Notes under the pieces: model-generated
Told to the model about the DNA's origin: nothing
What the model saw: only the letters and a program-made list of their open reading frames with translations
Database searches by the model: none
Source of the DNA: an uncultured Poribacteria bacterium
Lineage (GTDB): Bacteria > Poribacteria > WGA-4E > WGA-3G
Direction: 5' to 3'
DNA length: 64,000 nt
Assembly: GCA_951828515.1 (NCBI GenBank)
Contig: OX639992.1
Location: forward strand, 1,416,439-1,480,438
Part shown: positions 199-44,216 of the stretch, piece after piece
Layout of the letters: every line of letters begins with the position of its first letter
Position numbering within the stretch: position 1 is the first letter of the stretch
Translations under genes and position numbers: made by a program

Positions 199-3100
199 AT
201 GGACGAAAGGTTTACACAAGCCAGTGGCACGCATGTCTATACTGGATGCGAGTTGTTAGTTAAGGGTGCCTTAGAGAGTGGTGTCAGCCTTCTCACAGGT
301 TATCCAGGCTCTCCAATCGCCGAAGTATTTGACATTATCGAACGCAACGCCGAGTTGTTGAAGACCAACGGCATCGTCGCGCAGATAGCCAACAACGAGG
401 CATTGAGTATCGCTCGACTCAATGGTTCGCAGATGGCTGATGTCCGCGCGATTACGTTTATGAAAAGCGTCGGCTTCCATGTCGCTTCTGATTCTCTGGC
501 GATTAGTAACCTTGCAGGAACAACGGGTGGTGCGGTTGTGGTCGTTGGTGACGATACATGGTCGCACAGCACGCAGGTGCCTGCTGACTCCCGATTTTTG
601 GCACGGCACGTCCAAACACCGCTGATTGAGCCTGGCACATTTCAGGAACTTAAGGACTGGATTAACTGCGCCTTCCAGATTTCCGCAGCATCGAACCTCT
701 ATGTCTGCTACTTAACGACCGAAAATCAGGCAAGCGGCGGCGGCGATGTTGAACTCCACCCCAATATTTATCCCGAAATTAGCGACTTGCAGCAAATCAA
801 CTTGGATACCCAACTCATCGATGCCGACAAACGGGTTGTTTTACCGCCACATACTGCCCAGATCGAAGTAGAGGCATTGAGAGAACGGATCCCGATCGTA
901 CTTGAGACAGCACGGAACCTTGGACTCAACACAATCGAGTTCATGGAAGAAACTTCAAGTCGAAAGAAGCACCGTCTTGGATTTGTCAGTGCTGGCTTGG
1001 CTTATAGCTGCCTCCGCCACGCACTCCGAGAATTGCAGTTAGACGGTGAAATTCCGATTCTCAAACTGGGTGTGACATACCCTATTGACACGAACATCGT
1101 CAGAGAATTCGCCGCACAAGTTGACGAAATCTACGTCATCGAAGAAAAACGTCCCCTTTTAGAGAACGAAATAAAAGCATTCATTACCCACGGGTATCAG
1201 AATAGAGACATTGATCAATACGTAAATGTGTGGGGCAAACAATTTCCCAACGGCATGGCAGGAATCCCGGTCACTTCTGGCTTAGATGCCTCTATCCTTA
1301 TTCAAAAACTCATCCCACTTCTCAAACATCTCCTCGGTAATGGCAGTCAGCCGTCGGTTTCCGTCAACAGTCAGCGAGAGAACCTCTTTGCTGAAAGTCA
1401 ACAGCCGATTGCTGCCAGTCATACAGCACCCCATTACAATCCAAAAATCGATCTGGAACATCTCTCACGTGAAGAAACACTCCAAAGGCAGGTATCCGAA
1501 CAACAAATCGATATTCCACAACGCACGCCTACTTTCTGTCCCGGCTGTCCGCATCGGGATTCTTCGAGCGTTTTCCTTGAAATTACGCAGCAATTCATGG
1601 ATGTGGACTATATGAAGAAGCACCACGGCTCAGGACCTGTCGATCTTGTCTTCCATGGAGATATAGGCTGCTATTCAATGCTCAAATATGAACCGTTTCC
1701 ACGTCTCATGCACAATCTTTCTGCGATGGCATTAGGTGGCGGTGCGGGGGCTGGCATCGACCCGTTTATCAAAAACAAGCAGGTCGTTTTCATGGGGGAT
1801 TCAACCTTTTTCCACGGCGGGATAGCGGCGATTTCGGATTCAATCAAAAACAACCAAGACATCGCCTATATTATTTTAGACAACCAAACAACGGCAATGA
1901 CGGGACACCAACCGACGCCTGCTGACGAGTTTGACCTCCTCGGGAACCCGACGTTCGCACAAGATATTGAGCAAGTGGCACAAGGACTCACTGGTAATTC
2001 GGAAATAGAAATTGTGCGCACCAACCCAGAAGACAGGGTGAACTACAAAAAATATCTGGAGAAGACCATTCTCAAACCCGGTGTCAAAATTATCATCGCC
2101 GATAAAGAGTGTGCGATTACCCATCATCGTCGGGTTCGGCGTGAACAACGGCAAACGATAGCCAAAGACGGTTTTCTTAAATACGAAAAGCACATCAATA
2201 TAACGCATGAGGTGTGTGAGTTCTGTCGAGAATGCACCACTGTCACGGGATGTCCCGGTTTAAAAATAGTTGATACCGATTATGGTGAGAAAATCGCCAT
2301 CGATCAGTCAACTTGCGTCTCCGATGGTGCCTGTGCCCGGATTAAATACGCATGTCCTGCGTTTGAAGAGGTTATCGTCACACGCAAACGTCCGCCTAAG
2401 AAGCAAATAACAGAATTCGGCAATAGCGAACTCTTGAGTGATAAACCTTTACCACCACCACCCCTAAGGACGTTCGAGCGGAGTTGGAACATGTACGCCG
2501 CAGGTGTCGGCGGCATGGGGATCGGAACGATCTCGAAAGTCCTCGTCGTTGCAGGCTATCTTCAGGGCTACAACGTAACATTTTGCGATAGGAAAGGGCT
2601 GGCAATTCGCAATGGCGGTGTCTATACACATATCGCGTATATGCAACCGGGCGTTCACGCGTCCCCCATGATTCCTTATGGTAAGGCAGATCTCCTATTA
2701 GGACTCGATATTTTAGAGGCGGTCCGCGGGATTACTGCCCACTCACTCTTCCGCATCGCTTCACCGAATCGAACTGCTGCTGTGGTGAATACAGCCAAAA
2801 CTGAAACAATCACCACGCTCATCGGCAAAGACGATTTCGACCCAGAGACCCTCGAAGCGGAACTTCAGACGTATACGAAGGCGGACGCGTATTTTGGCAC
2901 AGATTTATTCACAGTTTCTGAGCGATTGTTCGGCAACACGTTATACGCGAACATGATGCTTCTTGGTACTGCTTTCCAACGGCAATTGATACCTCTCGAA
3001 TTGGAACCACTCCAATTGGCACTCAAACAGATGGTGCCGCACGCCGATTTAGATATCAACATGAAAGCGTTCACCGTCGGGCGTCGCCTTGCATTAGAAC

Positions 3101-3894
3101 ACACTGGATCTCTTGTGGACGCAAGTTCCGAAAAGCCGTTGGCAACCTACACAGAAATGCTTTCGGCAAAACAACAGATCTTAAGAAAAAAACGTAATGG
3201 GAAACGTTTAGCGCGAGAATACGTAACAATAATTGAAAGTATCATTGCGTCTCTTAATTTTAATTCAGACAGCATCCGTCGAACTCTCGCACTCTATATC
3301 TATGATTTGATTCAGTTCGAGGATATAAACTACGCACGGATATACGCTGAAAAGATTAAACAGGTGCACGCACACGACTCAGAAGCGTACCATTATCGAG
3401 CGACACAAGCTGCGATTCGCTATCTCCATAAGGTGATGCTAATCAAGGACGAGGTCTACGTCGCACATCTGCTAACGAGCGAAGAAAAATTGCAACGGGA
3501 TAAGGAACTGTATAAGGTTGACACAGCAAACGGCGATAGGATTAGATATGTTCATCTCAATCGTCCTCACGTCACCGTGATGGGGCTTGACTTTGAAAGT
3601 GACATTGACACACGAAATTGGCAATTGCATCTGATGAAACGTATGAAGTTTCTAAGACGCTGGCTTCCAGAGTGGCACGCCAAGGAAAAAGCGTTCCGAG
3701 AGTGGTATATTACCCGCGTGATCGACACCTTTTCACCGACTGACACTGAGACGTACGAAAAACATCTCCAAGCGTTAGAATGTGTGGAGGAAGTCCGTGG
3801 CTATCGAGAAATTCGCTACCCGAAAATGGAAATGGTAAAACAGAAAGTTGAAGAATGGTTGTCGGTTGTCAGTCGTCAGTCGTCAGTGGAATAG
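199..3894 (+). CDS. Indolepyruvate ferredoxin oxidoreductase, fused alpha/beta type
   Basis: Likely converts aryl-2-oxo acids such as indolepyruvate to acyl-CoA with reduction of ferredoxin, in the cytoplasm. At 1231 residues it matches the fused bacterial form. An N-terminal pyruvate-ferredoxin-oxidoreductase-type domain is followed by a TPP-binding domain (residues about 485-570, with GDIGCYSM and MGDSTFFHGG). A cysteine-rich Fe-S segment lies at about 673-720 (CEFCRECTTVTGC, then CVSDGACARIKYAC). A gamma/IorB-like domain starts near 764 (GVGGMGIGTISK), and a long C-terminal region follows as in fused enzymes. The last 10 or so residues (LSVVSRQSSVE) are encoded by a dispersed heptamer repeat, so the native C-terminus may have been replaced. 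The ATG follows a repeat with no clear Shine-Dalgarno. Confidence 0.9.
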   Translation: MDERFTQASGTHVYTGCELLVKGALESGVSLLTGYPGSPIAEVFDIIERNAELLKTNGIVAQIANNEALSIARLNGSQMADVRAITFMKSVGFHVASDSLAISNLAGTTGGAVVVVGDDTWSHSTQVPADSRFLARHVQTPLIEPGTFQELKDWINCAFQISAASNLYVCYLTTENQASGGGDVELHPNIYPEISDLQQINLDTQLIDADKRVVLPPHTAQIEVEALRERIPIVLETARNLGLNTIEFMEETSSRKKHRLGFVSAGLAYSCLRHALRELQLDGEIPILKLGVTYPIDTNIVREFAAQVDEIYVIEEKRPLLENEIKAFITHGYQNRDIDQYVNVWGKQFPNGMAGIPVTSGLDASILIQKLIPLLKHLLGNGSQPSVSVNSQRENLFAESQQPIAASHTAPHYNPKIDLEHLSREETLQRQVSEQQIDIPQRTPTFCPGCPHRDSSSVFLEITQQFMDVDYMKKHHGSGPVDLVFHGDIGCYSMLKYEPFPRLMHNLSAMALGGGAGAGIDPFIKNKQVVFMGDSTFFHGGIAAISDSIKNNQDIAYIILDNQTTAMTGHQPTPADEFDLLGNPTFAQDIEQVAQGLTGNSEIEIVRTNPEDRVNYKKYLEKTILKPGVKIIIADKECAITHHRRVRREQRQTIAKDGFLKYEKHINITHEVCEFCRECTTVTGCPGLKIVDTDYGEKIAIDQSTCVSDGACARIKYACPAFEEVIVTRKRPPKKQITEFGNSELLSDKPLPPPPLRTFERSWNMYAAGVGGMGIGTISKVLVVAGYLQGYNVTFCDRKGLAIRNGGVYTHIAYMQPGVHASPMIPYGKADLLLGLDILEAVRGITAHSLFRIASPNRTAAVVNTAKTETITTLIGKDDFDPETLEAELQTYTKADAYFGTDLFTVSERLFGNTLYANMMLLGTAFQRQLIPLELEPLQLALKQMVPHADLDINMKAFTVGRRLALEHTGSLVDASSEKPLATYTEMLSAKQQILRKKRNGKRLAREYVTIIESIIASLNFNSDSIRRTLALYIYDLIQFEDINYARIYAEKIKQVHAHDSEAYHYRATQAAIRYLHKVMLIKDEVYVAHLLTSEEKLQRDKELYKVDTANGDRIRYVHLNRPHVTVMGLDFESDIDTRNWQLHLMKRMKFLRRWLPEWHAKEKAFREWYITRVIDTFSPTDTETYEKHLQALECVEEVRGYREIRYPKMEMVKQKVEEWLSVVSRQSSVE

Positions 3895-14879: not shown

Positions 14880-14975
14880 CGGCGCAGGCGGATTTACGGA
14901 ACGCACGTAAAAGTCTAAACGCACGCTGTTCCCCCGCAAGGTAAAATTAAAAATCCGCAAGGTAAAATTAAAAAG
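14880..14975 (+). promoter_or_regulatory. Leader cassette upstream of nucleotidyltransferase
   Basis: Contains GGCGGATTTACGGAACGCACGT, then two tandem copies of CCGCAAGGTAAAATTAAAAA (14934-14953 and 14955-14974). The second copy ends one base before the ATG and supplies the AAGG Shine-Dalgarno. Confidence 0.65.
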
Positions 14976-15656
14976 ATGCAAGCGATTATTCTGTGCGGCG
15001 GTCTTGCCACGCGGCTCGGTGAGACAGCGAAAACACTTCCGAAGATTCTGCTGGATATCGCTGGGAAAACAGTCTTAGAATGGCAAATCCAATTGCTGAG
15101 AGATGTCGGTGTCACCTCAGTCATTCTCGCCTCGGGACATCTTCACGATGTGCTTTATGAACGCGTAGGAGACGCTTACGCTGGGATGTGCATTCGTTAT
15201 GCCAAAGAGGAAAAGAGGCTCGGCACTGGCGGCGCGGTTCAGAATGCGATGCAGCAGATCGATACATCCCCCTTTTTTGTTCTAAACGGCGATATTTTGC
15301 TCGCGAACTTTTCGTTGCGGCGAATGTTTGATCGGTTTGATCAAGGGATGGCAGGTGTGCTGTTAAGTGTGCATGTGCCGGACATTCGTCCCTATGGCGA
15401 GATTGTATCGGACGGTGAGGGAAAAATTCAAGCGTTTCATGAGAAACAGTCTATCCGCCGCGCTGGATATATCAACGGCGGGGTGTATCTTTTCGATCGA
15501 AGCATTGCTGACGCGTTTCCAAACGACCAAGAAAACTTCTCTATGGAACGAGATGTTTTTCCTTATGTTCGTAATCTTTATGCTTTACAAACGGACGCGG
15601 ATTGGATCGATATCGGTGTCCCAGAACGTTTAGCGGACGCACGTGAACATTTTTAA
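14976..15656 (+). CDS. Sugar-1-phosphate nucleotidyltransferase (HddC/RfbF-like)
   Basis: A 226-residue single-domain NTP transferase. The nucleotide loop is AIILCGGLATRLGETAKTLPK, with the metal-binding aspartate in FVLNGDIL (about residue 107) and INGGVYLFD. The length fits D-glycero-D-manno-heptose-1-phosphate guanylyltransferase and related enzymes that make NDP-sugars for surface polysaccharide. The sugar is not determinable. The TAA stop lies inside a reversed copy of the leader cassette (15651-15741), so the last residues may have been set by that insertion. Confidence 0.85.
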   Translation: MQAIILCGGLATRLGETAKTLPKILLDIAGKTVLEWQIQLLRDVGVTSVILASGHLHDVLYERVGDAYAGMCIRYAKEEKRLGTGGAVQNAMQQIDTSPFFVLNGDILLANFSLRRMFDRFDQGMAGVLLSVHVPDIRPYGEIVSDGEGKIQAFHEKQSIRRAGYINGGVYLFDRSIADAFPNDQENFSMERDVFPYVRNLYALQTDADWIDIGVPERLADAREHF

Positions 15657-15741
15657 TTTTACCTTGCGGTTCGGTCAGGTAAGTTTAGCACTTTGACGTT
15701 TCTTTCCGTAGATCCGCTTTCCACTTCGTTCCAAGCTGCGC
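15651..15741 (-). repeat. Orphan leader cassette (reversed) at a gene end
   Basis: Read on the minus strand: GCGCAGCTTGGAACG, GGAAAGCGGATCTACGG, ACGTCAAAG, CCTGACCGAACCGCAAGG, TAAAATTAAAA, then ATG inside the end of the nucleotidyltransferase gene. No gene follows in that direction, so this copy is not acting as a conventional leader. Confidence 0.6.
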
Positions 15742-15787: not shown

Positions 15788-16777
15788 CTACTCCTCTGTT
15801 CCTTCTGTCCGCAGCACGACATAACTCCGATACCGTTCTGCATGTATATCCCCCGCTTCAACGGCATCCTGAATAGCACAATCGGGCTCCGTAACATGGG
15901 CACAGTCGTTGTATTTACAGGTGCCGAGATACGGTTCCATTTCTGGGAAATAGTACTCAAGGTTTTCCGTATCTACACCCCACAACCCAACTTCCCGTAT
16001 ACCGGGCGTGTCCGCAACCTCGCCGCCGATGTCCAAGGGAAAAAGTTCGACAAGTGTTGTTGTATGTCGTCCTTTTTGAGTTCTGATACCAACTTCACCC
16101 GTGCGCAAGTCTAAACTTGGCTGGAGTGCGTTCAGCAGGCTGGATTTGCCGACACCCGACGCGCCAACAATAACACTAAATTTATCCTTTAGTGTCTCTC
16201 GGAGCGCGTCCAGACTCCCCGGAACATTAAGGCTGGTATAGATGACGGGGTAACCCAATTTCTCATAAACAGCAAAGGTCGCTGTGAGTTCTGTTCGTTG
16301 GGCTTCATCCACTAAGTCCATCTTGTTGAGACATACCACCGCTTCCATATCGCCAGCCTCTGCCAAGATAAGAAACCTATCGAGTGTCCGAAAGTTAAGG
16401 GGTGGCATCAGCGTAGAGACAACGGCTACGATTTGATGTGCATTCGCGACGATAACCTGCTCAATGTCCTCGTGTCTTCCGGCGTATTGCCGCGAGAACT
16501 TTGTCCGGCGAGGCAGAATATCCTCTATCACTCCCTCTTCCATATCAAGTTGCGTGAAGATGACCCAATCGCCGACAGCAACTGGGTCGGCATACAGTCT
16601 GCGTCCGGTTTCAGAGCGGTTTCTCCGTTTGAGTGTGCCACGGAGCGTGCATCGCAGGATAATATCATCATGTTGGACATCATAAAATCCTGTCCGCGCC
16701 CGGATGACTCTACCTTGTTCGCGTGTAAGGATGGACCCCACCTCCCAAAAGCGTGGAAGGAACTGAAGGGCAGCCAC
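15788..16777 (-). CDS. rsgA: Ribosome small-subunit GTPase A
   Basis: A 329-residue circularly permuted GTPase that helps mature the 30S subunit. An N-terminal OB-fold (about 20-110) precedes the G motifs in permuted order. NKMD (G4) is near 150, GASGVGKSSLLNAL (G1) near 205, the switch region TQKGRHTTT follows, and DTPG (G3) is near 256. The C-terminal zinc knuckle is CKYNDCAHVTEPDC. The start is a GTG with no obvious Shine-Dalgarno; no better downstream start is seen. It converges on the nucleotidyltransferase. Confidence 0.93.
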   Translation of the reverse strand: MAALQFLPRFWEVGSILTREQGRVIRARTGFYDVQHDDIILRCTLRGTLKRRNRSETGRRLYADPVAVGDWVIFTQLDMEEGVIEDILPRRTKFSRQYAGRHEDIEQVIVANAHQIVAVVSTLMPPLNFRTLDRFLILAEAGDMEAVVCLNKMDLVDEAQRTELTATFAVYEKLGYPVIYTSLNVPGSLDALRETLKDKFSVIVGASGVGKSSLLNALQPSLDLRTGEVGIRTQKGRHTTTLVELFPLDIGGEVADTPGIREVGLWGVDTENLEYYFPEMEPYLGTCKYNDCAHVTEPDCAIQDAVEAGDIHAERYRSYVVLRTEGTEE

Positions 16778-16804
16778 AATGGACAGCCCTACATTAAAAA
16801 TCTG

Positions 16805-17572
16805 TTAGACATACGCCTTCATGGTTTCCAAAGCTACCTCAACATCCTCGTCAAAATTGTCAAACTTGCACTCACACGAGACGCGACCGTCATAGCCCGC
16901 TTTTTGGAGTGCCGTGAAGAAATCTGTGAAATCGAAATCGTCGTTTCCGGGATAGGAGCGCTTGACAGGTTCCGCGATGTGAACATGCGCGAGCCATTCA
17001 GCAGCGTCGATGGTATTTTGCATCGGTTCTTCTTCCTGATGGATATGATAGAGGTCTGCCAACGCCTTGATACCCGGACGATTCACGCGTTTTGCCATAG
17101 CGAGTCCATCTGCGACGGTCCGAAGGATGTTTCCCTCTCGCCAACAAATGGGTTCGATGACAATCGTCATGTTGTGCGCTTCGGCATGATCCGCCGCCAT
17201 ATCGAGGAACTCAGCGATTTGCGCCAATGCCCGCTCGCGCGAATAGCCTTCTTCTATACTCCGGGAACCGCTACTGCCGTAGACGATAATTTCACCCCCA
17301 ATTTCACTGCCTCTACGACATGCAGTCTCTACATAACGAGATAAACGTGGAAAGTCCACGGTGTCGCCTACGACCCGTAAGTCCCCCGGAATAAATCCAG
17401 CGTAAGACTCCGGCTTTAAGGGCGCGTTCGCTACCTGTTCACGAATTTTCTGGAATTCCGTCTCATCCGTCTCAGGCATCAATCCCGGACGCACCCCTAA
17501 TTCAATGTAGTCATATCCAACTTCTGCGAGCCGATTGACATTCTCTAAACCTGTACAAACCCCAAATCTCAT
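16805..17572 (-). CDS. Xylose-isomerase-like TIM-barrel sugar epimerase/isomerase
   Basis: 255 residues of the AP-endonuclease-2/sugar-phosphate-isomerase fold. Visible elements are an N-terminal beta strand (MRFGVCTGL), YIELGVRP, IVIEPICWREGN with a metal-ligand Glu, IKALADLYHIHQEE, LAHVHIAEP and a terminal VSCECKFD. These acidic and His positions bind a divalent metal in the family. The substrate is unknown. AAAAGGAG upstream fixes the start. It lies 27 bp upstream of rsgA and 14 bp after uppS on the same strand. Confidence 0.85.
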   Translation of the reverse strand: MRFGVCTGLENVNRLAEVGYDYIELGVRPGLMPETDETEFQKIREQVANAPLKPESYAGFIPGDLRVVGDTVDFPRLSRYVETACRRGSEIGGEIIVYGSSGSRSIEEGYSRERALAQIAEFLDMAADHAEAHNMTIVIEPICWREGNILRTVADGLAMAKRVNRPGIKALADLYHIHQEEEPMQNTIDAAEWLAHVHIAEPVKRSYPGNDDFDFTDFFTALQKAGYDGRVSCECKFDNFDEDVEVALETMKAYV

Positions 17573-17586
17573 ACATTCACTCCTTT

Positions 17587-18390
17587 TTATGTTCCAAATC
17601 GTCGTTTTCGCTGGCTATAAGCACGCAAAGCACGAAGAAAGTCAATTTTCCGAAATGAGGGCCAGTAGGTATCGCAGAAATAGAATTCCGAGTAAACGCT
17701 CTGCCAAAGCAAAAACCCAGATAACCGCACCTCACCACTGGTACGAATGATTAACTCAGGATCCGGAAGGTTTGAGGTGTAAAGATAAGGTGTAATCTTA
17801 TCCACCGTGAGTTCGTCTGCAATCTGGTGGACAGGTTTACCACTCTCACTCTCGACTTTTAGGTGGCCGCGAAAGGCGTCAACAATTTCCTCTCGCCCAC
17901 CATAAGCGACAGCGACATTTAAGATAAACTTGTCGTAATGTTTCGTTGCTTCTTCCGCCTCCCGAATCGCTTCTTGCAGACTGGGTGGTAACAGCTCTAT
18001 CTGACCCATCGCGCGCACCTTAATCTGATTGGCATGGAGTCCCTCAATAGTAACGAGCTCCCGCATTTTCCTTTCAATAAGTCCGAGAATTCCTTCCACT
18101 TCATGTGCGGCGCGTTTGAAATTATCAAGGGAGAAAATCCAGATTGAGAAAATTTCAACGCCAAGTTCGTCGCACCAATGGAGCACCTCTTCGAGTTTGT
18201 TTGCCCCTTCGTGGTGTCCTTCAATGATATCTCCAAGTCCACTGGCTTTCGCATACCGACGGTTTCCATCTAAAATTACACCAATATGGCGTGGGATTTT
18301 CCAGGCATTGGCTTCGGATTCCAAACGCCGCTGATAAGCATTATAAAAAAATTTTTCAATTCGTCTTTTAATAGCGTGGAATGGGTTCAT
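17587..18390 (-). CDS. uppS: Isoprenyl (undecaprenyl) diphosphate synthase
   Basis: 267 residues; a cis-prenyltransferase that makes the lipid carrier for cell-wall and surface polysaccharides. IPRHIGVILDGNRRYAKASG has the catalytic Asp in the VILDGNRR motif. GHHEGANKLEEVLHWC, then FSLDNFKR, NVAVAYGGREEIVDA and IIRTSGEVRLSGFLLWQ follow, all family landmarks. The leader cassette lies directly upstream and supplies AAGG. The gene heads a likely three-gene minus operon with the TIM-barrel gene and rsgA. Confidence 0.93.
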   Translation of the reverse strand: MNPFHAIKRRIEKFFYNAYQRRLESEANAWKIPRHIGVILDGNRRYAKASGLGDIIEGHHEGANKLEEVLHWCDELGVEIFSIWIFSLDNFKRAAHEVEGILGLIERKMRELVTIEGLHANQIKVRAMGQIELLPPSLQEAIREAEEATKHYDKFILNVAVAYGGREEIVDAFRGHLKVESESGKPVHQIADELTVDKITPYLYTSNLPDPELIIRTSGEVRLSGFLLWQSVYSEFYFCDTYWPSFRKIDFLRALRAYSQRKRRFGT

Positions 18391-18482
18391 ATTTTTAATT
18401 TTACCTTGCAGAGGAATAGGGTTGCTTAGAACTGTGAAGTGATGTTCTTATATCCGCTCTCCATTCCATTACGAGCTACGCT
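18391..18482 (-). promoter_or_regulatory. Leader cassette upstream of uppS
   Basis: Minus-strand reading: GCGTAGCTCGTAATGG, GGAGAGCGGATATAAG, then CTCTGCAAGGTAAAATTAAA and the ATG. It is nearly the same as the cassette before the P-type ATPase homologue at 25420-25508. Confidence 0.65.
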
Positions 18483-18790
18483 TCTCCGTTGCAATGTAGG
18501 CATGATCTGTGAGGTCTCCCACATTGCGACATTTATTATAACACAGCAGCGTTATTTAGAAAAGTCTATAATTAGCATTAGCCGTCAGTCGTTAGCAATC
18601 GGCAGTCAGTTAAAAGAGGGATATGATACGCCTAACACTCTTTGTACCTGATAACCGAAAGGATTCTTGAAAAAAAATCGACACTGGCCCTATTCAGTAC
18701 GATGCCGATACGATTGATGGCTTAAGAAGTATAAGAGATTTTAAAGTTGACTTGTTGAAAAAAGTGTGATAAATTTATTGGAAACATTCA
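18483..18790. other. Intergenic sequence without a gene
   Basis: Holds one heptamer-repeat tract (18580-18620, gccgtcagtcgttagcaatc) and A/T-rich sequence before the IS left end. Nothing else is supported. Confidence 0.4.
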
Positions 18791-18880
18791 CCTGATGTCA
18801 CGGATTGGAGGTTTCCCAAACCTTCAGGTTTGGGAGGAAAAATCCGCCCTCTTGGAAAGGACAAAAACGCCATTTTTGAG

Positions 18881-18909
18881 TTGACATTCTGTCCGAATTG
18901 TGGTATAAT
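18881..18909 (+). promoter_or_regulatory. Consensus promoter of tnpB
   Basis: TTGACA (18881-18886), a 17-bp spacer and TATAAT (18904-18909), a full match to the sigma-70 consensus. This is unusually strong for an IS accessory gene. Confidence 0.8.
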
Positions 18910-18912
18910 TAA

Positions 18913-18998
18913 GAGTATCAAGTTGGCAAGCATACGACGCGTAGTCTCTCGGCTACGTGCTTGCCTCCCACGTCGTAGGGGATAAACGCTCGATACTT
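18913..18998 (+). ncRNA. Pseudoknot-like 5' leader of tnpB
   Basis: Stem GGCAAGCA (18925-18932) with TGCTTGCC (18958-18965) stacks on CGTAG (18940-18944) with CTACG (18953-18957). The 7-nt bulge TACGACG (18933-18939) is perfectly complementary to CGTCGTA (18971-18977) just past the stem. Outer pairing GAGTATC (18913-18919) with GATACTT (18992-18998) closes the domain 8 nt before the start codon. Confidence 0.6.
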
Positions 18999-19006
18999 GA
19001 GAGTCC

Positions 19007-20272
19007 ATGAGATTAACCTTTAAATATCCTATTTATCCAACACAGGCAGAAGAACGAACCCTCTTAGAGTGGTTTGACCACTTGTGTGACCTTCAAAATT
19101 CTGCGCGCAACAATCGCAAGCATGCCCATGAGACGGAAGGTCGTTTTGTCTCTCGATATGACCAGGAACACCTTTTGAAGGTTGCCCGTGAGACGTATGA
19201 CGATTTCCGCGCCGTGCCTCAAGATTTTCAAGTCTCCATCCTCAAGCGCGTTGATAAAGCCTTTGAGGCGTTCCGTAAGCGTTGTGAGGAGGGTGCAGCG
19301 AAAAAGGGTTACCCTCGCTTCAAAATGCGTGTGCGTTCTCTGACGTGGTGCTTGCGAAAGCACACCCTCAAAACAGGTCAACGTGTCCGCCAAAATCCCA
19401 TAATAGAAACCGATTTTAGACACAATCGTTTGAAAGTGCCGAAGTTAGGTGAAGTCAAGATACGCATGCACCGTCCCCTTCAAGGTGACCCGAAAGAAGT
19501 CACACTCGTCAAAAAAGCAAGTGGCTGGTATGCACACATTACGTGTGAGTTGCCTGACGCGCCGAAAGTTGAACCCACACACGCAATCGCGGTTGACGTT
19601 GGTACGACCCACTACCTGACCACCTCTGAAGGCGAAAAGGAAGATAACCCACGTTGGTATCGTCAAGCAGAAGGCTTGCTCCGAAAACACTCCAAAGACT
19701 TCTCTCGAAAGAAAAAAGGTAGCCAGCGTTGGCAGAAACAAAAACACAAACTCGCTTTACACCATGAGCGAACAACAAACAAACGCAAAGACTTTATCGG
19801 GAAACGCGTCTATGACCTCTACCACCACAAAGAAAACAACGTCTTAGTGGCAGAGGCGTTAAGCGTATCTAACATGGTTCAGAATAAACACCTCAGCAAG
19901 AGCATATCCGATGCGTCTTGGGCAACCTTCTTTGAGTGGTGTGCGAGTATAGCCGAAAGAGACGGCTTGCACTTCCACCAAGTTGACCCTAAGAACACCT
20001 CGCAAACCTGCTCCGCTTGTGGTAAGAAATCGCAAAAGAAACTCTCTCTTGCGATACGAACCTTTAATTGTCAGTCTTGTGGCACGTCTTTAGACCGAGA
20101 CCATAACGCCGCATTAAACATACTTTTTAGGGCGGCTTGCACCCGTCGTGGAGAGCGGTGGGTTACCACCCTCTATGAAACGAGAAACAAGAACGAAGCA
20201 CGAGACGCGGGCTTTGGGAATGCTGAACAATTGTTGTTGTTCAATGATCTCTTAACAAGCCCAAGTCTTTAG
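19007..20272 (+). CDS. tnpB: TnpB, RNA-guided nuclease of IS200/IS605-type element
   Basis: 421 residues, within the usual TnpB range. The N-terminal helix-turn-helix/OrfB domain (MRLTFKYPIYPTQAEERTL) is followed by a RuvC-like nuclease with all catalytic acids: D197 (AVDVGTTHYLT), E283 (VLVAEALSVSNM) and D365 (LDRDHNAALNIL). The zinc ribbon has C335, C338, C355 and C358. The protein should be an active DNA nuclease guided by an omega RNA from the 3' end of the gene and the right end. The stop codon lies inside the right-end hairpin, as is common for these elements. The start ATG is preceded by only a weak GAGAG. Confidence 0.92.
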   Translation: MRLTFKYPIYPTQAEERTLLEWFDHLCDLQNSARNNRKHAHETEGRFVSRYDQEHLLKVARETYDDFRAVPQDFQVSILKRVDKAFEAFRKRCEEGAAKKGYPRFKMRVRSLTWCLRKHTLKTGQRVRQNPIIETDFRHNRLKVPKLGEVKIRMHRPLQGDPKEVTLVKKASGWYAHITCELPDAPKVEPTHAIAVDVGTTHYLTTSEGEKEDNPRWYRQAEGLLRKHSKDFSRKKKGSQRWQKQKHKLALHHERTTNKRKDFIGKRVYDLYHHKENNVLVAEALSVSNMVQNKHLSKSISDASWATFFEWCASIAERDGLHFHQVDPKNTSQTCSACGKKSQKKLSLAIRTFNCQSCGTSLDRDHNAALNILFRAACTRRGERWVTTLYETRNKNEARDAGFGNAEQLLLFNDLLTSPSL

Positions 20273-22539: not shown

Positions 22540-25419
22540 TTAATTCTCATCCGGACGCGAACCTATTGCCAAATTCAGTGGTAATAGCAGTAATGTTAGA
22601 CTAAACAGGAGTGTCCATTGCCATTCCCATTTGAGGCGCACCATTCCAAAAAATTGTGCCACAGGTTCGACATAGAGCGTTGTCAAATGGAGTGCTATAA
22701 TCACAAGCGAAATAATGATGAGACGAGAATTCGCGAGTACCCTCTGAACGAGTGGTTCCCATGGATAGCGTAAAGCTTGCCAACATGTAGATAGTTGTGT
22801 AAAAATAAGCGTGGTACACGCTGCTGTTCGCGCGATGGCGATATCCGGAGCATTCGGATCCCCCACATCTCCAATTGAAAGGACATCTGTCATTAATGTC
22901 GAAACACCGAATGTGTCTGACAATTCAGGGGACCGCCATAAAATAAAGAAGAACGGAATGATTGTCATCAGGCTAACAGTCACAGCGCGGCAAACGATGT
23001 CTACACCTGTCGTTTTTGAAAGGAAACGCGATCCTGAAAATAGGGTTGGACGGTGATGCCGATTGGTATCATTGGCATCAGCAAATATCCGTTCCGTGCC
23101 TATAACTAATGATGGTAATAGGGTCAGGAGAAATTGGGTCCAAATCATCTGTGTTAACGTCAATGGCATAGGCATCTTATAGAGATAGTGTAGCACCGTC
23201 CCGAAAGTCAGTGTGAGGAGTAGGGAGAGTGTACAAGAGAAGTTCCACCGTAGAAAACTGGCGGCGTTATGATACGCCTCACGAGCATGAAGCAGTGCAT
23301 CTCTGATAGCTTGGAAGCCTCCGCTGTTAATGAGTCCATCGGCTGCGGCTTGCACAACATGTGATGCATCAATTCTATTCGCAAGCGTAATATCCGCAAC
23401 GGTCATTGCTCGGAGATCTTTTCTACTTTGCCCCAGAAATCCTACTGCATGTCCCTGACGTTTTAAACTGAGGACGATATTCCGACGTTGATGCCACGTT
23501 GGTTGCGAATAAGCAATCCACTTTGCTGTTTCACCATCGAGTTGTTCACGCGAGACAGCGTCAAGTTCCTCCCCCGACACCACTGCTTTTCGGTTGTGGA
23601 TAAGCCCAAGATCCTTCGCGAGATCGACTGTTTCTTGTTCCTCGTTTTCAGTGATGAGCATAATTTTAAGTCCAGTATCAAGGCTGGACTTCAGGACTGC
23701 CTTCGTCCGTTCATCATTGTTGACAGAAAAACTGATAAACCCTAAAAAAATGGGATTGTATTCCATTTCCTGCGGTTTCAGAATAACATCAGAGGAATGA
23801 AAGGCTACGCCATACACCTGCGCTTTGGTATTCATCAGATAGTCTATAATTTCATGATACATTTCGTACCTGTCGTCTGATAAGGGTGTAGCTTCGCCAT
23901 TAATGAGTACATAACCGCAGGTGTCAAGTACTGTTCGAGCATCTCCAAAGATGATATTAAGATAATCCTCTGGTGCTGACTCGAATACTTGCATTTGATA
24001 GGGGTAGTTTCGTGTAAAGGGATACGTGTTCACTAACGGAAGTCGAGCCTTCACACCTTCGAGTTGGTAGCCGAGTTTTTTCACATCCTGTTGGATGGCA
24101 ATCTGAGGGGACGGTCCCATTTCGGAAGACATAGCTTCTGAAGCTGACCGTGTGTTAAGGGGGTCGGCACCGTCGGTATTCTGCCCATCAGCAGTACCAA
24201 GTCCTGCCGTAAACATTAAGTGGGGGGCACCCTGTGGTATTTTTCCACCAGGTGACATTGTCTCAATCGCTTCTTGCCGCTTTGCAGGGGTAAGCTCTTT
24301 AAGAGAATTTAACCATGCGTTCCATGTTTTACCATCAATCAGTTGTTCATCAACGAAAATATTTGAAATTGTTAGGGAACGTGTGGTGGAGAGCCCGTTT
24401 TCATTCGCAAAAAAAGTGGTAATACGACTTAGTTTTTCAAGGCTACGTGAATTTCTGAGCACAACCCCTTTTCCCAACAATCTTTGGGCATGTTTAGAAA
24501 AGAATAAACGGAGCAACTGAATCACATCTTGGGGGGCAGATGCGATAACAAATAGCATTCCTAAATGGATTAGAGATTGCCAATCGGTAGCATGATTCTG
24601 ATATTCAAACCACCACGCGATTGCGACAGCCACACCTCCCAGAACCATACCTACAACTTTGAGAGCGGTATATAAACCTCTCGTCTCAATTTCAGCGAGT
24701 GTCTTCGCAGCGAGCGCTGGGTGTGCATCCGGACGTTGTTTCCATATTTCCAACTGTCTTCCTGTCTGAACAACAATTGCAAATCCATGTCCTGCTACAA
24801 CATACGTCCCGCCGAACGCCATGTTTTTCTGTTCTTGAGGCGGTAAAGTACTATCTTGAATATCCGTCCCAACCTTTTGCACAGGTTCCTCGGTGCCAAA
24901 GAGGACGGACTCGTCAATCATAAGACCTTCTGATTCAATGATCCTGGCATCAGCGGGCACATAGTCTCCTGCCCTAAAAGGGAGTAGGTCCCCAGGTACG
25001 ATGTCCTCTGGGGCGCATTCATCTAATTTCCCTTGTCGAATAACCTTGATACTATGCACCATGAGTTTATTATGGTTAGTATCCCGACTGCGAATGCGAT
25101 GTTCCATCATGTATGCGGATACGGCATGAATAACCAAAACCGCCCCGACAACGCCTACTGCATGGGCCGTAACGCTACTCGTACCGTTGATTAAGGAAAC
25201 TCCAAGGATGACCGTCCCGATTCCCAAAACAATCACACGCCACGTGAGCAACGATTTCAGAAACGCTTTAAAAGGAAAAGCGTCTTCCTCTGGGGACCCT
25301 TCGTTCTTACCATGCCGTGCTTTCGCTCTCTGAAAGGCTTCGGCACTCAGTCCCTGCTCCATGTTGGAGTCGAATTTATTTAGTATTGATGCAATGTTTT
25401 CCGCATGAAAATTTGACAT
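22540..25419 (-). CDS. P-type ATPase homologue lacking catalytic motifs (pseudoenzyme)
   Basis: 959 residues with the full P2-type architecture: an N-terminal cation-ATPase segment, four core helices, N- and P-domains and a C-terminal helix bundle. Every catalytic signature is altered. At the phosphorylation loop, DKTGT reads N339-E-N-G-L, so the phosphorylated Asp is Asn. TGES in the A-domain reads FGTE (174-177). PEGL in helix 4 reads PQDV (296-299). TGDN reads TENE (590-593). GDGxND reads GQSRKD (663-668). The KGAPE nucleotide motif is gone. The frame is uninterrupted and the membrane helices are preserved, so this is not a recent pseudogene. It probably cannot pump ions by the P-type cycle. 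A leader cassette precedes the ATG. Confidence 0.85.
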   Translation of the reverse strand: MSNFHAENIASILNKFDSNMEQGLSAEAFQRAKARHGKNEGSPEEDAFPFKAFLKSLLTWRVIVLGIGTVILGVSLINGTSSVTAHAVGVVGAVLVIHAVSAYMMEHRIRSRDTNHNKLMVHSIKVIRQGKLDECAPEDIVPGDLLPFRAGDYVPADARIIESEGLMIDESVLFGTEEPVQKVGTDIQDSTLPPQEQKNMAFGGTYVVAGHGFAIVVQTGRQLEIWKQRPDAHPALAAKTLAEIETRGLYTALKVVGMVLGGVAVAIAWWFEYQNHATDWQSLIHLGMLFVIASAPQDVIQLLRLFFSKHAQRLLGKGVVLRNSRSLEKLSRITTFFANENGLSTTRSLTISNIFVDEQLIDGKTWNAWLNSLKELTPAKRQEAIETMSPGGKIPQGAPHLMFTAGLGTADGQNTDGADPLNTRSASEAMSSEMGPSPQIAIQQDVKKLGYQLEGVKARLPLVNTYPFTRNYPYQMQVFESAPEDYLNIIFGDARTVLDTCGYVLINGEATPLSDDRYEMYHEIIDYLMNTKAQVYGVAFHSSDVILKPQEMEYNPIFLGFISFSVNNDERTKAVLKSSLDTGLKIMLITENEEQETVDLAKDLGLIHNRKAVVSGEELDAVSREQLDGETAKWIAYSQPTWHQRRNIVLSLKRQGHAVGFLGQSRKDLRAMTVADITLANRIDASHVVQAAADGLINSGGFQAIRDALLHAREAYHNAASFLRWNFSCTLSLLLTLTFGTVLHYLYKMPMPLTLTQMIWTQFLLTLLPSLVIGTERIFADANDTNRHHRPTLFSGSRFLSKTTGVDIVCRAVTVSLMTIIPFFFILWRSPELSDTFGVSTLMTDVLSIGDVGDPNAPDIAIARTAACTTLIFTQLSTCWQALRYPWEPLVQRVLANSRLIIISLVIIALHLTTLYVEPVAQFFGMVRLKWEWQWTLLFSLTLLLLPLNLAIGSRPDEN

Positions 25420-25508
25420 TTTTTAATTATTCCTTGCGGTTAAACAACGTGGATTTGAACTTGACATGCTTTTCTTATATCCGTTCTCCATTTCATTACG
25501 AACTACGC
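25420..25508 (-). promoter_or_regulatory. Leader cassette upstream of the P-type ATPase homologue
   Basis: Minus strand: GTGCGTAGTTCGTAATG, GGAGAACGGATATAAG, then TTTAACCGCAAGGAATAATT and AAAAA before the ATG. Closely matches the uppS leader. Confidence 0.65.
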
Positions 25509-25544: not shown

Positions 25545-26462
25545 CTAAAAAACGGTTGCTCCGCGAGCATCTGGCTTCAAAATTTTAATATCCGCCACAA
25601 TCTGGTGCTTTTTGAAGGCAACTTGCATCTTCTCAGCAACCTGTTCTGTGTGCTCAAGACAATAGGCTGCGACAGTGGGTCCTGCTCCACTCAATGCCAC
25701 GCTAAGTGCTCCAGCGGTGGTAGCGGCTTCCGCCACATCATCAAATCCTGGAATCAGCGAAGTCCGATAAGGTTGATGCAACCTATCTTTCATTGCAACA
25801 CGCAACATTTCAAATTGCCTCGTGGCAATGCTGGCGATTAGCAGTGTGCTCCGGCTTGTATTGTAGATTGCATCTGCGAAACCCACTGACGTTGGTAGCA
25901 CCCCTCGCGCCTGTTCTGTTGACAGTGGGAAATCGGGAATTGCCAGTACAATCGAAAGGAGGGACGGACATTCTAATCGAACAGTATGAACCTGAGCATC
26001 CTCCTGCGCGGAAACGACGAGTCCACCATACAATGAGGCGGCAACGTTATCCGGATGCCCTTCAAGTTCTGTCGCAAAGTTGAGGAGTTCTGGGTTAGAA
26101 AATGGAGTACCACAGAGTGCGTTTGCAGTAAGCAACCCACCAAGAATAGCTGTTCCACTGCCACCGAGACCTCGAATCGCAGGTATCCCATTTTCGATCT
26201 GCAATTTAAAGCCCCTCGGACGTTCCGCTCCGCTTCGGTGAAAAACAAGCTCCACCGCTTGAAACGCGACATGCGCCGGCGTACTTGGGATTTTATCGGC
26301 ATCTACGCCGCACACAATAACTTCGGTGTCGGTTTCAGACGGTTCCAACGTAACTGTGCTATAGAGCTGGAGAGCGAGCCCTAAGACATCGAATCCGGGT
26401 CCCAGATTCGTTGTGCTTGCCGGGATCCGCGCGGTAGCTTTTCGGTTAAAAGTAGGAGACAT
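25545..26462 (-). CDS. thrB: Homoserine kinase
   Basis: A 305-residue GHMP kinase that phosphorylates homoserine in threonine synthesis. N-terminal IPASTTNLGPGFDVLGLAL has the family signature. The ATP loop is IRGLGGSGTAILGGLL (about 95-110), and the C-terminal LSGAGPTVAAYC is the third GHMP motif. The ATG directly follows a leader cassette (CCGCAAGGTATAATTAAAA). The adjacent gene is an aspartate-aminotransferase-type enzyme on the same strand. Confidence 0.93.
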   Translation of the reverse strand: MSPTFNRKATARIPASTTNLGPGFDVLGLALQLYSTVTLEPSETDTEVIVCGVDADKIPSTPAHVAFQAVELVFHRSGAERPRGFKLQIENGIPAIRGLGGSGTAILGGLLTANALCGTPFSNPELLNFATELEGHPDNVAASLYGGLVVSAQEDAQVHTVRLECPSLLSIVLAIPDFPLSTEQARGVLPTSVGFADAIYNTSRSTLLIASIATRQFEMLRVAMKDRLHQPYRTSLIPGFDDVAEAATTAGALSVALSGAGPTVAAYCLEHTEQVAEKMQVAFKKHQIVADIKILKPDARGATVF

Positions 26463-26520
26463 TTTTAATTATACCTTGCGGAGGAACACCGGACGTTTCG
26501 AGTTTGACGTGCGTTCCTCC
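26463..26520 (-). promoter_or_regulatory. Leader cassette upstream of thrB (short form)
   Basis: Minus strand: GGAGGAACGCACGTCAAACT, CTCCGCAAGGTATAATTAAA, AA, ATG. The upstream GCGTAGCCCGTAA segment is missing. Confidence 0.6.
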
Positions 26521-26539
26521 AATAACTGATAACTATTGG

Positions 26540-27712
26540 CTACAACTTCGAGATTGCAGTTTCCATTCTGCCTAATGCCTCTTGGATGTTATCTAACGAA
26601 TTAGCATACGAGAGACGGAGATATCCATCACCATATTTGCCAAAAGAGGTACCAGGCAACAGGGCAACATCCGCTTCATCCATGAGATAGTCGGCGAGTG
26701 GTTCACATGAAAGTGGTAGTTGCGTAACGTTAGGAAACACATAGAAAGCACCGAGCGGTTTGATGCAGCTGACTCCTTCAATTGCATTCAGTCCATCTAC
26801 TATTGCGTCGCGTCGTTTCTGAAATTCTGAAACCATTTGGGTAACAGAAACTTGTGGTCCTGTCAGTGCCTCTATCCCAGCGATTTGTGTGAAGGTGGCA
26901 GTACAGGAATTAGAGTTAATAGTTAACTGCGTGATTTTATCAGCGATTTCTTGGGGAGCAATACCATAGCCTAACCGCCATCCTGTCATTGCATAGGTTT
27001 TAGAATGCCCTTCGATCAGGATTGTTCGTTCCTTCATACCGGGCAGACTGAGAACGCTATGGTGTTGACCTTCATAGAGGATGCGTGAATAGACTTCATC
27101 TGTCAACACATAAAAATTGTGTTTCTGTGCGAGTTCGGCGATTGCTTCAAGGTCTTCAAGGGTTAGCGTGCCACCTGTAGGATTCTGAGGTGAGTTGAGG
27201 ATAAGTAATTTCGTCCGATCAGAGATTGCGGCTTCAAGATCTTCAAGCCGGAATCGGAAGCCTACCTCCTCGCGAAGGAGTAGCGGTACGGCATTTCCGC
27301 CGATGAAGTCGATAACAGATTCGTAGACGGGGAAACCGGGTTCGGGATAGATGACCTCATCACCATCATCGATTAACGCCAGAATAGTGAAGAAAATAAT
27401 AGGTTTCGCTCCGGGTGTCACTGTAACTTCGTCAGGGTGTATGGTAACACCGCGTGTCTCAGTTATATGTTGTGCGACGACCTCTCGAAACTCCGGCACA
27501 CCAGCAGATGGGCAGTAGCCGGTATGCCCGTCCTTCATTGCTTTGTACGCTGCCTCAATAATATTAATCGGTGTCGGAAAATCCGGCTGTCCTATTTCCA
27601 GATGGATGATGTCTTTGCCCTGTGCTTCTAACTGTTTGGCTTTAGCTAAGACTTCAAATGCGGATTCCGTGCCTAATCGACTCATCCGCGTTGCGAATGT
27701 GGATACTTCCAA
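26540..27712 (-). CDS. PLP-dependent class I/II aminotransferase (aspartate type)
   Basis: A 390-residue fold-type I aminotransferase. Substrate-side IGQPDFPTP is near 43, the ring-stacking segment SAGVPEFRE follows, and NSPQNPTGG carries the conserved Asn. LTDEVYSRI carries Asp/Tyr, and the Schiff-base lysine is in EGHSKTYAMTGWRLGY (about 237). It most likely interconverts aspartate/oxaloacetate or a related amino acid, which suits its place beside thrB. The start is TTG after GCGAGGTATAATT; the next internal ATG is at MSRLGTE, nine codons in. Confidence 0.9.
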   Translation of the reverse strand: MEVSTFATRMSRLGTESAFEVLAKAKQLEAQGKDIIHLEIGQPDFPTPINIIEAAYKAMKDGHTGYCPSAGVPEFREVVAQHITETRGVTIHPDEVTVTPGAKPIIFFTILALIDDGDEVIYPEPGFPVYESVIDFIGGNAVPLLLREEVGFRFRLEDLEAAISDRTKLLILNSPQNPTGGTLTLEDLEAIAELAQKHNFYVLTDEVYSRILYEGQHHSVLSLPGMKERTILIEGHSKTYAMTGWRLGYGIAPQEIADKITQLTINSNSCTATFTQIAGIEALTGPQVSVTQMVSEFQKRRDAIVDGLNAIEGVSCIKPLGAFYVFPNVTQLPLSCEPLADYLMDEADVALLPGTSFGKYGDGYLRLSYANSLDNIQEALGRMETAISKL

Positions 27713-27800: not shown

Positions 27801-28820
27801 TTATTCTGCCTGCATTATAGCACCCGTGGAACTCGCTACCCACACATTTTGTCCGTCAAGCACAAAAACCTTGACTAATTTTTCCCTGGAATCTTCAAGT
27901 TCCCAATTTTTGCCACCATCACTGGTACGCAGAATGGCACCGACTCCAAAGTCGCCACCAACAGCCCAACCGTTCTCCTCATCTGCGAACCCAACACTCC
28001 GTAGTGTTTCTTCTGTGCCACTCACTTGATCTTTCCATGATTCGCCGCCGTCACTGGTATGAAGGATTACACCATTTTCACCAACAGCCCAACCCATTGA
28101 CGCATCAAGGAAAAAGATGTCTTCAAGGATATCCTCTCTGTCAGTCGGTTGTGTGACCCAAGTCTGTCCACCATCCATCGTTTTCTGAATCAAGGCATGT
28201 TGTCCCTGTGTACTCGGACTCACGCGGACTCCGGCAATCCATCCGGTCTCTTCGCCAAGAAATTGAATGGCGTTGTACATATTCGCGTCATCATCACCGA
28301 TCGCACCGAGTTGCCCACCTTGAAGAATCTTCCATGAGCGCCCGCCATTTTTTGTAGAAAGGATAGTGTCACTTTCTCCGACTGCGTACCCGGTCTCTTT
28401 AGTAGTAAAATAGATGCCTTTAAGTCCGTTGCCAACCTTGCTGGTTTGCATTTCCCAGTCTCTACCGTTATTAGTACTGACAATTGCTCCATTCGCACCG
28501 ACAGCCCAACCGTGTTTATCATCAAGGAAGTACACTTCTGCTAAATCGGCAGGAATTTTGATTTCCGATTTTTGCCACGATTTACCACCATCCATGGTAT
28601 ATCCGATAAAGCCGGGATTTTCAAAGTCTTCAAACGATGCAGCGCCGACGACCCACCCCGTACTCTTGCTTGTAAAAACTATTGACATGTAATCCCGAAC
28701 TTCTGGATCACGTTCTTGTAAAACACTCCAATTTCCTAATGCCGGTAGGACGGTGCCCAAAATGCCAACGATTGCGAGTAGCATTATTCCGGTCAGTAGG
28801 CGTGTCTCAAGTTTGTTCAT
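27801..28820 (-). CDS. YCF48/HCF136-like secreted BNR-repeat protein
   Basis: About 339 residues with an N-terminal signal or anchor helix (LLTGIMLLAIVGILGTVLP). Six or more seven-bladed-propeller repeats follow, each ending in a T.DGG.SW-type motif (TMDGGKSW, STNNGRDW, TKNGGRSW, TMDGGQTW, TSDGGESW, TSDGGKNW) with GWAVG strands between. YCF48 proteins act in photosystem II assembly in phototrophs. No photosynthesis gene is near, so here it is simply an extracytoplasmic propeller of unknown role. AAAGGAG before 28820 fixes the start; an upstream in-frame ATG at 28946 overlaps the promoter. Confidence 0.85.
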   Translation of the reverse strand: MNKLETRLLTGIMLLAIVGILGTVLPALGNWSVLQERDPEVRDYMSIVFTSKSTGWVVGAASFEDFENPGFIGYTMDGGKSWQKSEIKIPADLAEVYFLDDKHGWAVGANGAIVSTNNGRDWEMQTSKVGNGLKGIYFTTKETGYAVGESDTILSTKNGGRSWKILQGGQLGAIGDDDANMYNAIQFLGEETGWIAGVRVSPSTQGQHALIQKTMDGGQTWVTQPTDREDILEDIFFLDASMGWAVGENGVILHTSDGGESWKDQVSGTEETLRSVGFADEENGWAVGGDFGVGAILRTSDGGKNWELEDSREKLVKVFVLDGQNVWVASSTGAIMQAE

Positions 28821-28894
28821 TGTTATTCTCCTTTTTGTTGTTAATTTCCCCGGTGTGGGGGCATGCTGTTTTTTCGCCACTAGAATGAAATTAT

Positions 28895-28924
28895 AATATA
28901 ACCTTGAATCGGAAATCAAGTCAA
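28895..28924 (-). promoter_or_regulatory. Promoter of the YCF48-like gene
   Basis: On the minus strand TTGACT (28919-28924), 18 bp, then TATATT (28895-28900), with a shifted TATAAT nearby. It lies 75 bp upstream of the start codon. Confidence 0.6.
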
Positions 28925-29038
28925 TAGATTTTTCGCAAGCACTCAAGGGATTGGGACTTCAAAAGCAACAGGAATCCTATCCAGAAAAACTAAAGCCTCA
29001 TACTATTGCGGGGCTGAGTTTCAATGCCACCTACATAG

Positions 29039-30593: not shown

Positions 30594-31541
30594 TTAGAGC
30601 AATAGATTGAGTGAGAACCGCTGTGTTATATTGTCTTGAAAATTCCCACTCAGCAGTTGAAATCCATAGTCGAGTTGGAGGGCAGTACCACTGATCGGCA
30701 GCTTAGCACTCCCACCGAAACTCAGGGTTGTTGCCGAACTCCCTCCATTTTTCACGCCATAACCGCCGCGAACAGCGATAGATTTATTCAACCAGACTTC
30801 TATTCCGGTGCGTATATAAATTTCGCCATTGCGAGACGCAACCTCAAAGCTCCCAAGACTACCTTTCAACAAGTTGCTGACCGCCGCACCTTGTGCGCTC
30901 ATCTCCGCCATAGACGCAAGTCTGTATGCCAAACCGGCACGAATGTTTAACGGCACCGAATCCGTCTGCGTGTCAGATATGCTCATATCTGCGGGGAGTA
31001 GGTTCTCTACCGATGCACCAAGACTCAGACTCTGGAAAGGTTTTGCAATCACACCGAGATCAAAAGAGACAGCTGAACTCGAGGTGTTGACGAAATACGG
31101 ATTCTCTACGACGAATTCGTTTGCCTCGTCAAAAGCGGCACGGAAGAGTTTCAGATTTGCACCGATTGCGAATTGTTTGAAAAGAGCACTTCCGTAAGAG
31201 AGTCGCAACGTCTGTTCACTATAAATTTCGGAATCCTCTGCCAAACCTCCGAAACCTGCCCCAATTGCCCCTATTCTTCCGAGCGGAATAACACTACTGA
31301 GGGCATTATAGGTAATGAGTCCGTTAAAGCGTTGTGCGTGCGTAGCACCGAGATGGATCCCATCAATATAACCTAATCCTGCGGCGTTGTAATCTGCGGC
31401 GTTACTATCATCAGCGAGTGCGACGAACGCTCCACCTAAACCTAACGGTCTCGCGCCAACACCAATATTATTGAATGTAGCAGCGGCGACAGCTGGAAAA
31501 AGCAACGCGATGAGTAGAATTAGACAGAATATATGCTTCAA
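30594..31541 (-). CDS. PorV/PorQ-like (UPF0164) outer-membrane barrel
   Basis: 315 residues. The signal peptide is cleaved after PAVAAA. The N-terminal motif GVGARPLGLGGAFVALADD and YNAAGLGYI are hallmarks of the PorV/UPF0164/OMP_b-brl family. Repeated amphipathic strands end in QRFSLNLLL. In Bacteroidota PorV shuttles T9SS cargo. Here the neighbouring FlgD-domain protein is a plausible client, but no core T9SS gene lies in this window. AAGGAAATAATAG precedes the start. Confidence 0.82.
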   Translation of the reverse strand: MKHIFCLILLIALLFPAVAAATFNNIGVGARPLGLGGAFVALADDSNAADYNAAGLGYIDGIHLGATHAQRFNGLITYNALSSVIPLGRIGAIGAGFGGLAEDSEIYSEQTLRLSYGSALFKQFAIGANLKLFRAAFDEANEFVVENPYFVNTSSSAVSFDLGVIAKPFQSLSLGASVENLLPADMSISDTQTDSVPLNIRAGLAYRLASMAEMSAQGAAVSNLLKGSLGSFEVASRNGEIYIRTGIEVWLNKSIAVRGGYGVKNGGSSATTLSFGGSAKLPISGTALQLDYGFQLLSGNFQDNITQRFSLNLLL

Positions 31542-41452: not shown

Positions 41453-41586
41453 TTTTTAATTTTACCTTGCGGTTCGGTCAGGTGAGTTGGGATCTGAAAG
41501 TGCCTCTCCGTATATCTGAAGAAAGGGAAACGCCCTATCAAAAACCCCTATCAAAAACCCCGCCGCTCCGCTTACGGGCTACGCGC
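41453..41586 (-). promoter_or_regulatory. Leader cassette upstream of ZIP transporter, with internal repeat insertion
   Basis: Minus strand: GCGCGTAGCCCGTAAGCGG, a tandem GGGGTTTTTGATA duplication, AGATATACGGAGAGGCACTT, then CTGACCGAACCGCAAGGTAA and AATTAAAAAA. It stops 36 bp short of the start codon. The inserted segment matches positions 92-121 of the window. Confidence 0.55.
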
Positions 41587-44093: not shown

Positions 44094-44216
44094 GTGCGTA
44101 GTCCGTAACATTGTCCCGTAAGCTTTTATAGGAAACCTGCGCTGGGGGAACGGATTCGAGCGAGGAACGTTAGAGCTCGAATGTCGCCTGATTTAACCGC
44201 AAGGAATAATTAAAAA
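44094..44216 (+). promoter_or_regulatory. Leader cassette upstream of PhyH (long form)
   Basis: GTGCGTAGTCCGTAACATTG, TCCCGTAAGC, an internal inverted repeat (cgagctctaa / ttagagctcg region near 44158-44180), then TTTAACCGCAAGGAATAATT and AAAAA before the ATG. It is homologous to the leader at 63739-63855 of the paralogous PhyH gene. Confidence 0.65.

Follow-up and report, generated by a model that had tools for sequence, protein, structure and literature searches.

The defining feature of P-type ATPases is an aspartate that becomes phosphorylated, and a gene that keeps the full architecture of such a pump while the residues of its reaction cycle are replaced raises the question of what its product is retained for. 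Such a gene lies on the minus strand at positions 22540 to 25419 of the stretch of Poribacteria DNA analysed here (64,000 nucleotides, hereafter the window). It had been described in an earlier note, made from the letters alone, as a full-length P-type ATPase whose catalytic motifs had all been replaced, and the five motif readings given there were found to be exact. The reading frame was confirmed to run from ATG to stop over 959 codons with zero internal stops, and the 959-residue product comprises A, P and N domains and ten predicted membrane helices, which bears out the intact frame and helices that had been claimed.

Searches with Pfam models placed PF00690 (Cation_ATPase_N), PF00122 (E1-E2_ATPase) and PF00689 (Cation_ATPase_C) on the protein above their curated cut-offs, with the N domain model PF13246 scoring below its own; PF00122 was detected in 26 of 26 family members, and the HAD hydrolase model PF00702 in only nine of them. 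The best named family for the window protein was the PMR1-type Ca2+-ATPase of NCBIfam, with a score of 205 bits where the cut-off is 798, the nearest solved structures were SPCA1 and LMCA1, and a profile of the family matched PDB entries down to an E-value of 5e-146. By homology, the window protein is a P2A-type (Ca2+-ATPase-like) P-type ATPase homologue with A, N, P and M domains in order. The family is homologous over nearly its full length to the bacterial P2A Ca2+-ATPase LMCA1 of Listeria (PDB 6zhf) and to SPCA1/PMR1 (PDB 8iww), sharing with them the A domain, the M4 proline and the ten-helix plan, but differs from these pumps in having all five catalytic motifs and the cation ligands of M4, M5 and M6 replaced. 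AlphaFold, supplied with the window protein plus 25 rather similar relatives (56–89% identical to it; 26 sequences in all), gave a mean pLDDT of 47 for the full protein, with the membrane helices at about 70–87 across most of their length, and a pLDDT of 35 for the P/N fragment, the cytoplasmic domains being poorly predicted. When the full model was searched with Foldseek, the 50 matches listed were all P-type ATPases, at a TM-score of about 0.3.

The motif columns were compared between 73 near-complete family members, the most divergent of them about 20% identical to the window protein, and 42 intact pumps that are invariant at all catalytic positions counted. At the former phosphorylation motif DKTGT (24391–24405, minus strand, as for all motifs given here) the window protein reads N339-E340-N-G342-L343, and DKTGT occurred in none of the 73 members. 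The acceptor aspartate (equivalent to Asp351) was nevertheless retained in 27 of them, in contexts such as CSDEKG, CVDEVG and CFDPQG; the position after it, the former lysine occupied by E340 in the window protein, was Lys in one member and Glu in 65. The dephosphorylation motif TGES (24889–24900) has become F174-G-T-E177, with threonine for Glu183, a glutamate kept in 1/73 members against 42/42 intact pumps. At the former TGDN motif (23641–23652; T590-E591-N-E) the Gly626-equivalent was acidic in 71 of the 73 members and glycine in all 42 pumps. The hinge and Mg motif GDGxND (23416–23433) reads G663-Q-S-R-K-D668, in which the first aspartate is gone and the second retained, as in the family at large (Asp703-equivalent 0/73, Asp707-equivalent 72/73). 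The equivalent of Lys684 in HAD motif III, R645 (23485–23487), is still basic, with Arg or Lys in 72/73, and the motif residues surviving in the window protein are G342, the glycine of DKTGT, and D668, the second aspartate of GDGxND. Across the 91 columns at least 95% invariant in the intact pumps, 41 were conserved in fewer than 10% of the family and 26 still in at least 90%, a loss of motifs far beyond chance. In the deepest member, L101, the motifs are already NKKGI, TGVS and GKNSSD; its gene adjoins a minus-strand frame (2292–3707 of that locus) that combines a caspase-like domain with a cyclophilin-type peptidyl-prolyl isomerase. By what is established for P-type ATPases, the window protein, taken on its residues, could not run the canonical phosphorylation cycle: it lacks the acceptor and Mg-binding Asp residues, the Lys and Thr of catalysis and the dephosphorylating Glu.

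The membrane ligands were found to be replaced as well, and those of M5 and M6 add to what the earlier note had observed. In M4, the PEGL motif (24523–24534) has become P296-Q-D-V, with Q297 in place of Glu309 and the helix-breaking proline retained; across the family, proline was found in 71/73 members and glutamate at the Glu309 position in 8/73. The M5 ligands Asn768 and Glu771 (23221–23232) correspond to T730 and L733, and those of M6, Asn796, Thr799 and Asp800 (23122–23136), to Q762, L765 and T766. Thr stood at the Asn768 position in 57/73 members, Gln at the Asn796 position in 55/73, and Asp at the Asp800 position in 0/73. Because the M5 and M6 ion ligands are gone too, ordinary Ca2+ pumping by the window protein is ruled out as far as its sequence can tell, and with neither the ATP chemistry nor the cation ligands it would therefore not be a slow or leaky Ca2+ pump either.

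Some match was obtained in each of 85 Poribacteria genomes searched. In some of these it was only a CopA-type or intact P2 pump (G030 and G002), and the others carry the pseudo-ATPase family, so that nearly every sampled Poribacteria genome has one full-length pseudo-pump. A search of genome contigs yielded 26 loci, all from Poribacteria and all with open frames (one, L019, clipped by the start of its contig), with best segments 53–89% identical. No near-complete Poribacteria member scored below 884 bits with the family profile, and no match elsewhere exceeded 628 bits; the Poribacteria matches below 884 bits were fragments and one partial member (G009). Orthologues with intact DKTGT, which the earlier note had named as counting against its reading, were looked for, and no member with intact motifs was seen inside the clade among the 73 aligned. 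Within the phylum, intact P2-type pumps were confined to the two deepest genomes (G001 and G002), and the intact Poribacteria pumps placed on the tree (L104 and L107) fell outside the pseudo-ATPase clade. When 40 intact relatives from other phyla were included in a tree, a branch with an SH-aLRT of 100 set the family apart, and this single-clade grouping persisted under a mixture model with the catalytic columns removed; both trees are quick searches without bootstrap, and support for the deep branches within the family is weak. DKTGT was present in 40/40 of the best relatives outside the phylum. The pseudo-ATPase family is best explained as ancient, of one origin and phylum-wide in Poribacteria. 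A 38-row tree required at least 1 change at the Asp707 position, 6 at Lys352, 7 at Gly626, 8 at Asp351, 14 at Asp703 and 16 at Glu309; some sites are released and drifting, and others are fixed in a new state.

Selection was examined by pairwise NG86 estimates over 175 pairs, which gave a median omega of 0.117, a figure that is approximate with dS near 1, although the contrast among regions is large. The lowest values of the whole protein were those of the former phosphorylation domain (0.061 near the former Asp, and 0.065 for the second segment of the P domain), followed by 0.10 in M5–M10, 0.13–0.18 in the remainder and 0.35 in an N-domain linker. The overall value is similar to those of other functional genes: neighbouring genes on the same loci gave 0.036–0.129, and pairs of intact P2A pumps from other phyla 0.09–0.29. 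Relaxed selection over the whole gene, for which the earlier note had proposed that dN/dS be computed, was thus not seen, and the gene has been retained at full length by strong purifying selection for function. The altered motif residues are themselves conserved: E340 was Glu in 39/39 close relatives, encoded by GAA or GAG, and in the same relatives Arg was invariably kept at R645 and Gly at G342 through four codons each, and Asp at D668 through two, with synonymous-only variation at R670 too. At the deeper scale of the whole family, the A domain had 25 conserved columns against 25 in intact pumps and M5–10 had 17 against 18, compared with 12 against 42 in P2, 7 against 17 in P1, 6 against 15 in the N domain and 2 against 12 in M3–4. 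Conserved residues specific to the family in M5–10 were W725, D807, R811, Q881, R884 and P947.

The neighbourhood, which had been called stable, proved to be so in most loci. Directly upstream of the gene, on the same strand, lies thrB (homoserine kinase; 25545–26462), preceded by a class I aminotransferase resembling aspartate/LL-DAP aminotransferases (26540–27712) and a YCF48/BNR beta-propeller protein (27801–28946), all on the minus strand. The adjacency of thrB was found at 59 loci with a median gap of 65 bp and extends from the genus to families f6, f7 and f8, and the one-strand order propeller, aminotransferase, thrB, pseudo-ATPase was kept in most loci, with PorP/SprF-like, PCMT and SppA/S49 genes farther upstream. 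Because genus g9 has the gene elsewhere, beside those for ribosomal protein L27 and RNase E/G, the linkage to the thrB cluster is strong but not obligatory, and the idea of a strict dependence on a thrB operon is weakened. The PorP/SprF-like gene of the window lies at 30594–31541, and at another locus (L088, 11892–13493, minus strand) a PorX-like fusion of a response regulator with PglZ was noticed; together with weak T9SS-type C-terminal signals, these are hints of a type IX secretion system in Poribacteria.

The "own leader cassette" attributed to the gene did not hold up as such. The element CCGCAAGGAATAATTAAAAA immediately before its ATG (25420–25439, minus strand) is one of many near-identical copies of a leader of about 20–21 bp, CCGCAAGG(A/T)A(A/T)AATTAAAAA, found mostly immediately 5' of start codons. 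The genome holds 266 copies at up to one mismatch, with 0 for the reversed control and 0 for shuffles, and the leader is missing before most pseudo-ATPase orthologues; a gene-specific leader or RNA element was rejected on account of this genome-wide occurrence. Copies in the window lie at 14934–14953, 14955–14974, 44197–44216 and 63836–63855 and, on the minus strand, at 15650–15669, 18392–18411, 25420–25439, 26462–26481 and 41453–41472. A separate 37-bp intergenic repeat, GCGTAGTTCGTAATGAAATGGAGAACGGATATAAGAA, occurs at 18445–18481 and about 25472–25508 (minus strand) with 92% identity and may be a mobile or REP-like element. Elsewhere in the window, the stretch from uppS to a DUF6785 gene (15788–20272) contains an IS605/TnpB-like gene (19007–20272) that is extra relative to many relatives, and the RsgA and TIM-barrel genes after uppS (15788–17572) have no matched counterpart there in many relatives.

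With a probability of roughly 0.6, the protein is a P2A-derived pseudoenzyme of single origin, spread through the phylum and retained as a ten-helix membrane scaffold or receptor. What favours this reading is that constraint within the genus is strongest in the former P domain, whose pocket carries a new, stable charge pattern (E340, E591, D668 and R645). The protein would act without pumping, as a scaffold or receptor in the inner membrane; the headpiece would hold its fold, and perhaps switch shape when a ligand or protein partner binds, by virtue of the conserved A domain together with the M4 proline and the D668/R645 pair, and the old phosphate pocket with its four charged residues would be a putative binding site. 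Co-expression with the cluster of homoserine kinase, aminotransferase and envelope-protein genes is plausible in most lineages but would not be required, since one genus has the gene elsewhere. A more specific version is held only tentatively: that the phylum's sole Ca2+-ATPase-type protein became a membrane receptor or transceptor that works independently of phosphorylation, the nucleotide and phosphate pocket having been rebuilt as an acidic, phosphate-excluding site for ligand or protein docking (E340, E591 and D668 with R645) that drives conformational change in the A and M domains. Counting against repurposing, the Asp351-, Asp703- and Glu309-equivalents drift on the tree, as is expected of released sites.

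The main rival to a scaffold or receptor, though an unlikely one, is a passive transporter, channel or lipid-handling protein not driven by ATP, whose membrane domain would form a gated path for a polar or lipid substrate and whose cytoplasmic domains would serve only as the gate. The ten predicted helices, the persistent M4 proline, the nearly undiminished conservation of M5–10 with its family-specific residues and the uniformly polar, uncharged character of the former ligand sites (T730, Q762 and T766) fit this, but it leaves the lowest omega, that of the former P domain, unexplained, and the neighbouring genes point to no transport substrate. Pseudoenzymes frequently regulate active paralogues, and the earlier note had offered, within a retained non-enzymatic role, the possibility that the protein regulates an active pump as its partner. 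The retained pseudoenzyme stands, given the complete absence of DKTGT and an omega of 0.12, but a candidate partner is lacking: the sole other P-type ATPase of the window genome is an intact CopA of P1B type (L002), a second P2-type pump was looked for in that genome and not found, and PF00689 is single-copy in nearly all Poribacteria genomes, which makes a regulatory subunit highly improbable. A decaying pseudogene without function could account for the drift of several catalytic positions, but not for phylum-wide presence, an omega of 0.12, synonymous-only change at motif codons and full-length orthologues free of disabling mutations; its probability is negligible, and pseudogene and assembly error alike were rejected on the strength of 85 genomes and this omega. 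An active enzyme running a non-canonical ATP-driven cycle is improbable, if less so than a regulatory subunit. Its precedent is human ERMA/TMEM94 (DKQGI, GSSANL, no TGES), for which ATP-driven Mg2+ uptake without canonical motifs has been claimed (PMC13322241), and the retention of Asp707 (72/73), of Arg or Lys at the Lys684 position (72/73) and of Asp351 (27/73) is compatible with it. However, the acceptor position of the window protein is occupied by Asn and the D427N substitution abolishes ERMA activity (PMC13322241), that activity is itself disputed by a report of no nucleotide at the proposed site and no detectable ATPase activity (PMC12134183), the acidic residue in place of Gly626 in 71/73 members should repel phosphate, and the cation ligands are lost. 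Residual phosphotransfer may persist in the Asp-retaining lineages, and a cryptic ATPase is possible mainly in those clades.

The closest precedents for the family are TMEM94/ERMA and the degenerate P4-ATPase-like domains of apicomplexan guanylate cyclases such as PfGCbeta (PMC6592433). TMEM94 resembles the family in combining P-type architecture with the loss of TGES and GDGxND; it was absent from the best 60 PDB matches listed for the family profile, and unlike the window protein it keeps the Asp and Lys (DKQGI), is eukaryotic and is longer. PfGCbeta likewise keeps a degenerate P-type domain in a membrane protein, but is of P4 type, fused to a cyclase and eukaryotic, whereas the Poribacteria protein is free-standing and P2A-derived. 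Searches of the open-access literature turned up no prokaryotic family of P-type pseudoenzymes. Inventories of P-type ATPases drop sequences without DKTGT (for example PMC10763278), and free-standing pseudo-pumps would therefore be overlooked. As an ancient family of 73 aligned members, the Poribacteria proteins suggest that the P-type fold can be selectively useful without phosphorylation or ion binding; they offer a natural test of what uncoupled A, P and M machinery can do and bear on the ERMA/TMEM94 dispute over whether P-type proteins lacking the motifs can be active. For Poribacteria, a sponge-associated phylum, the finding would mean that a pump was converted, phylum-wide, into a membrane protein that does not pump.
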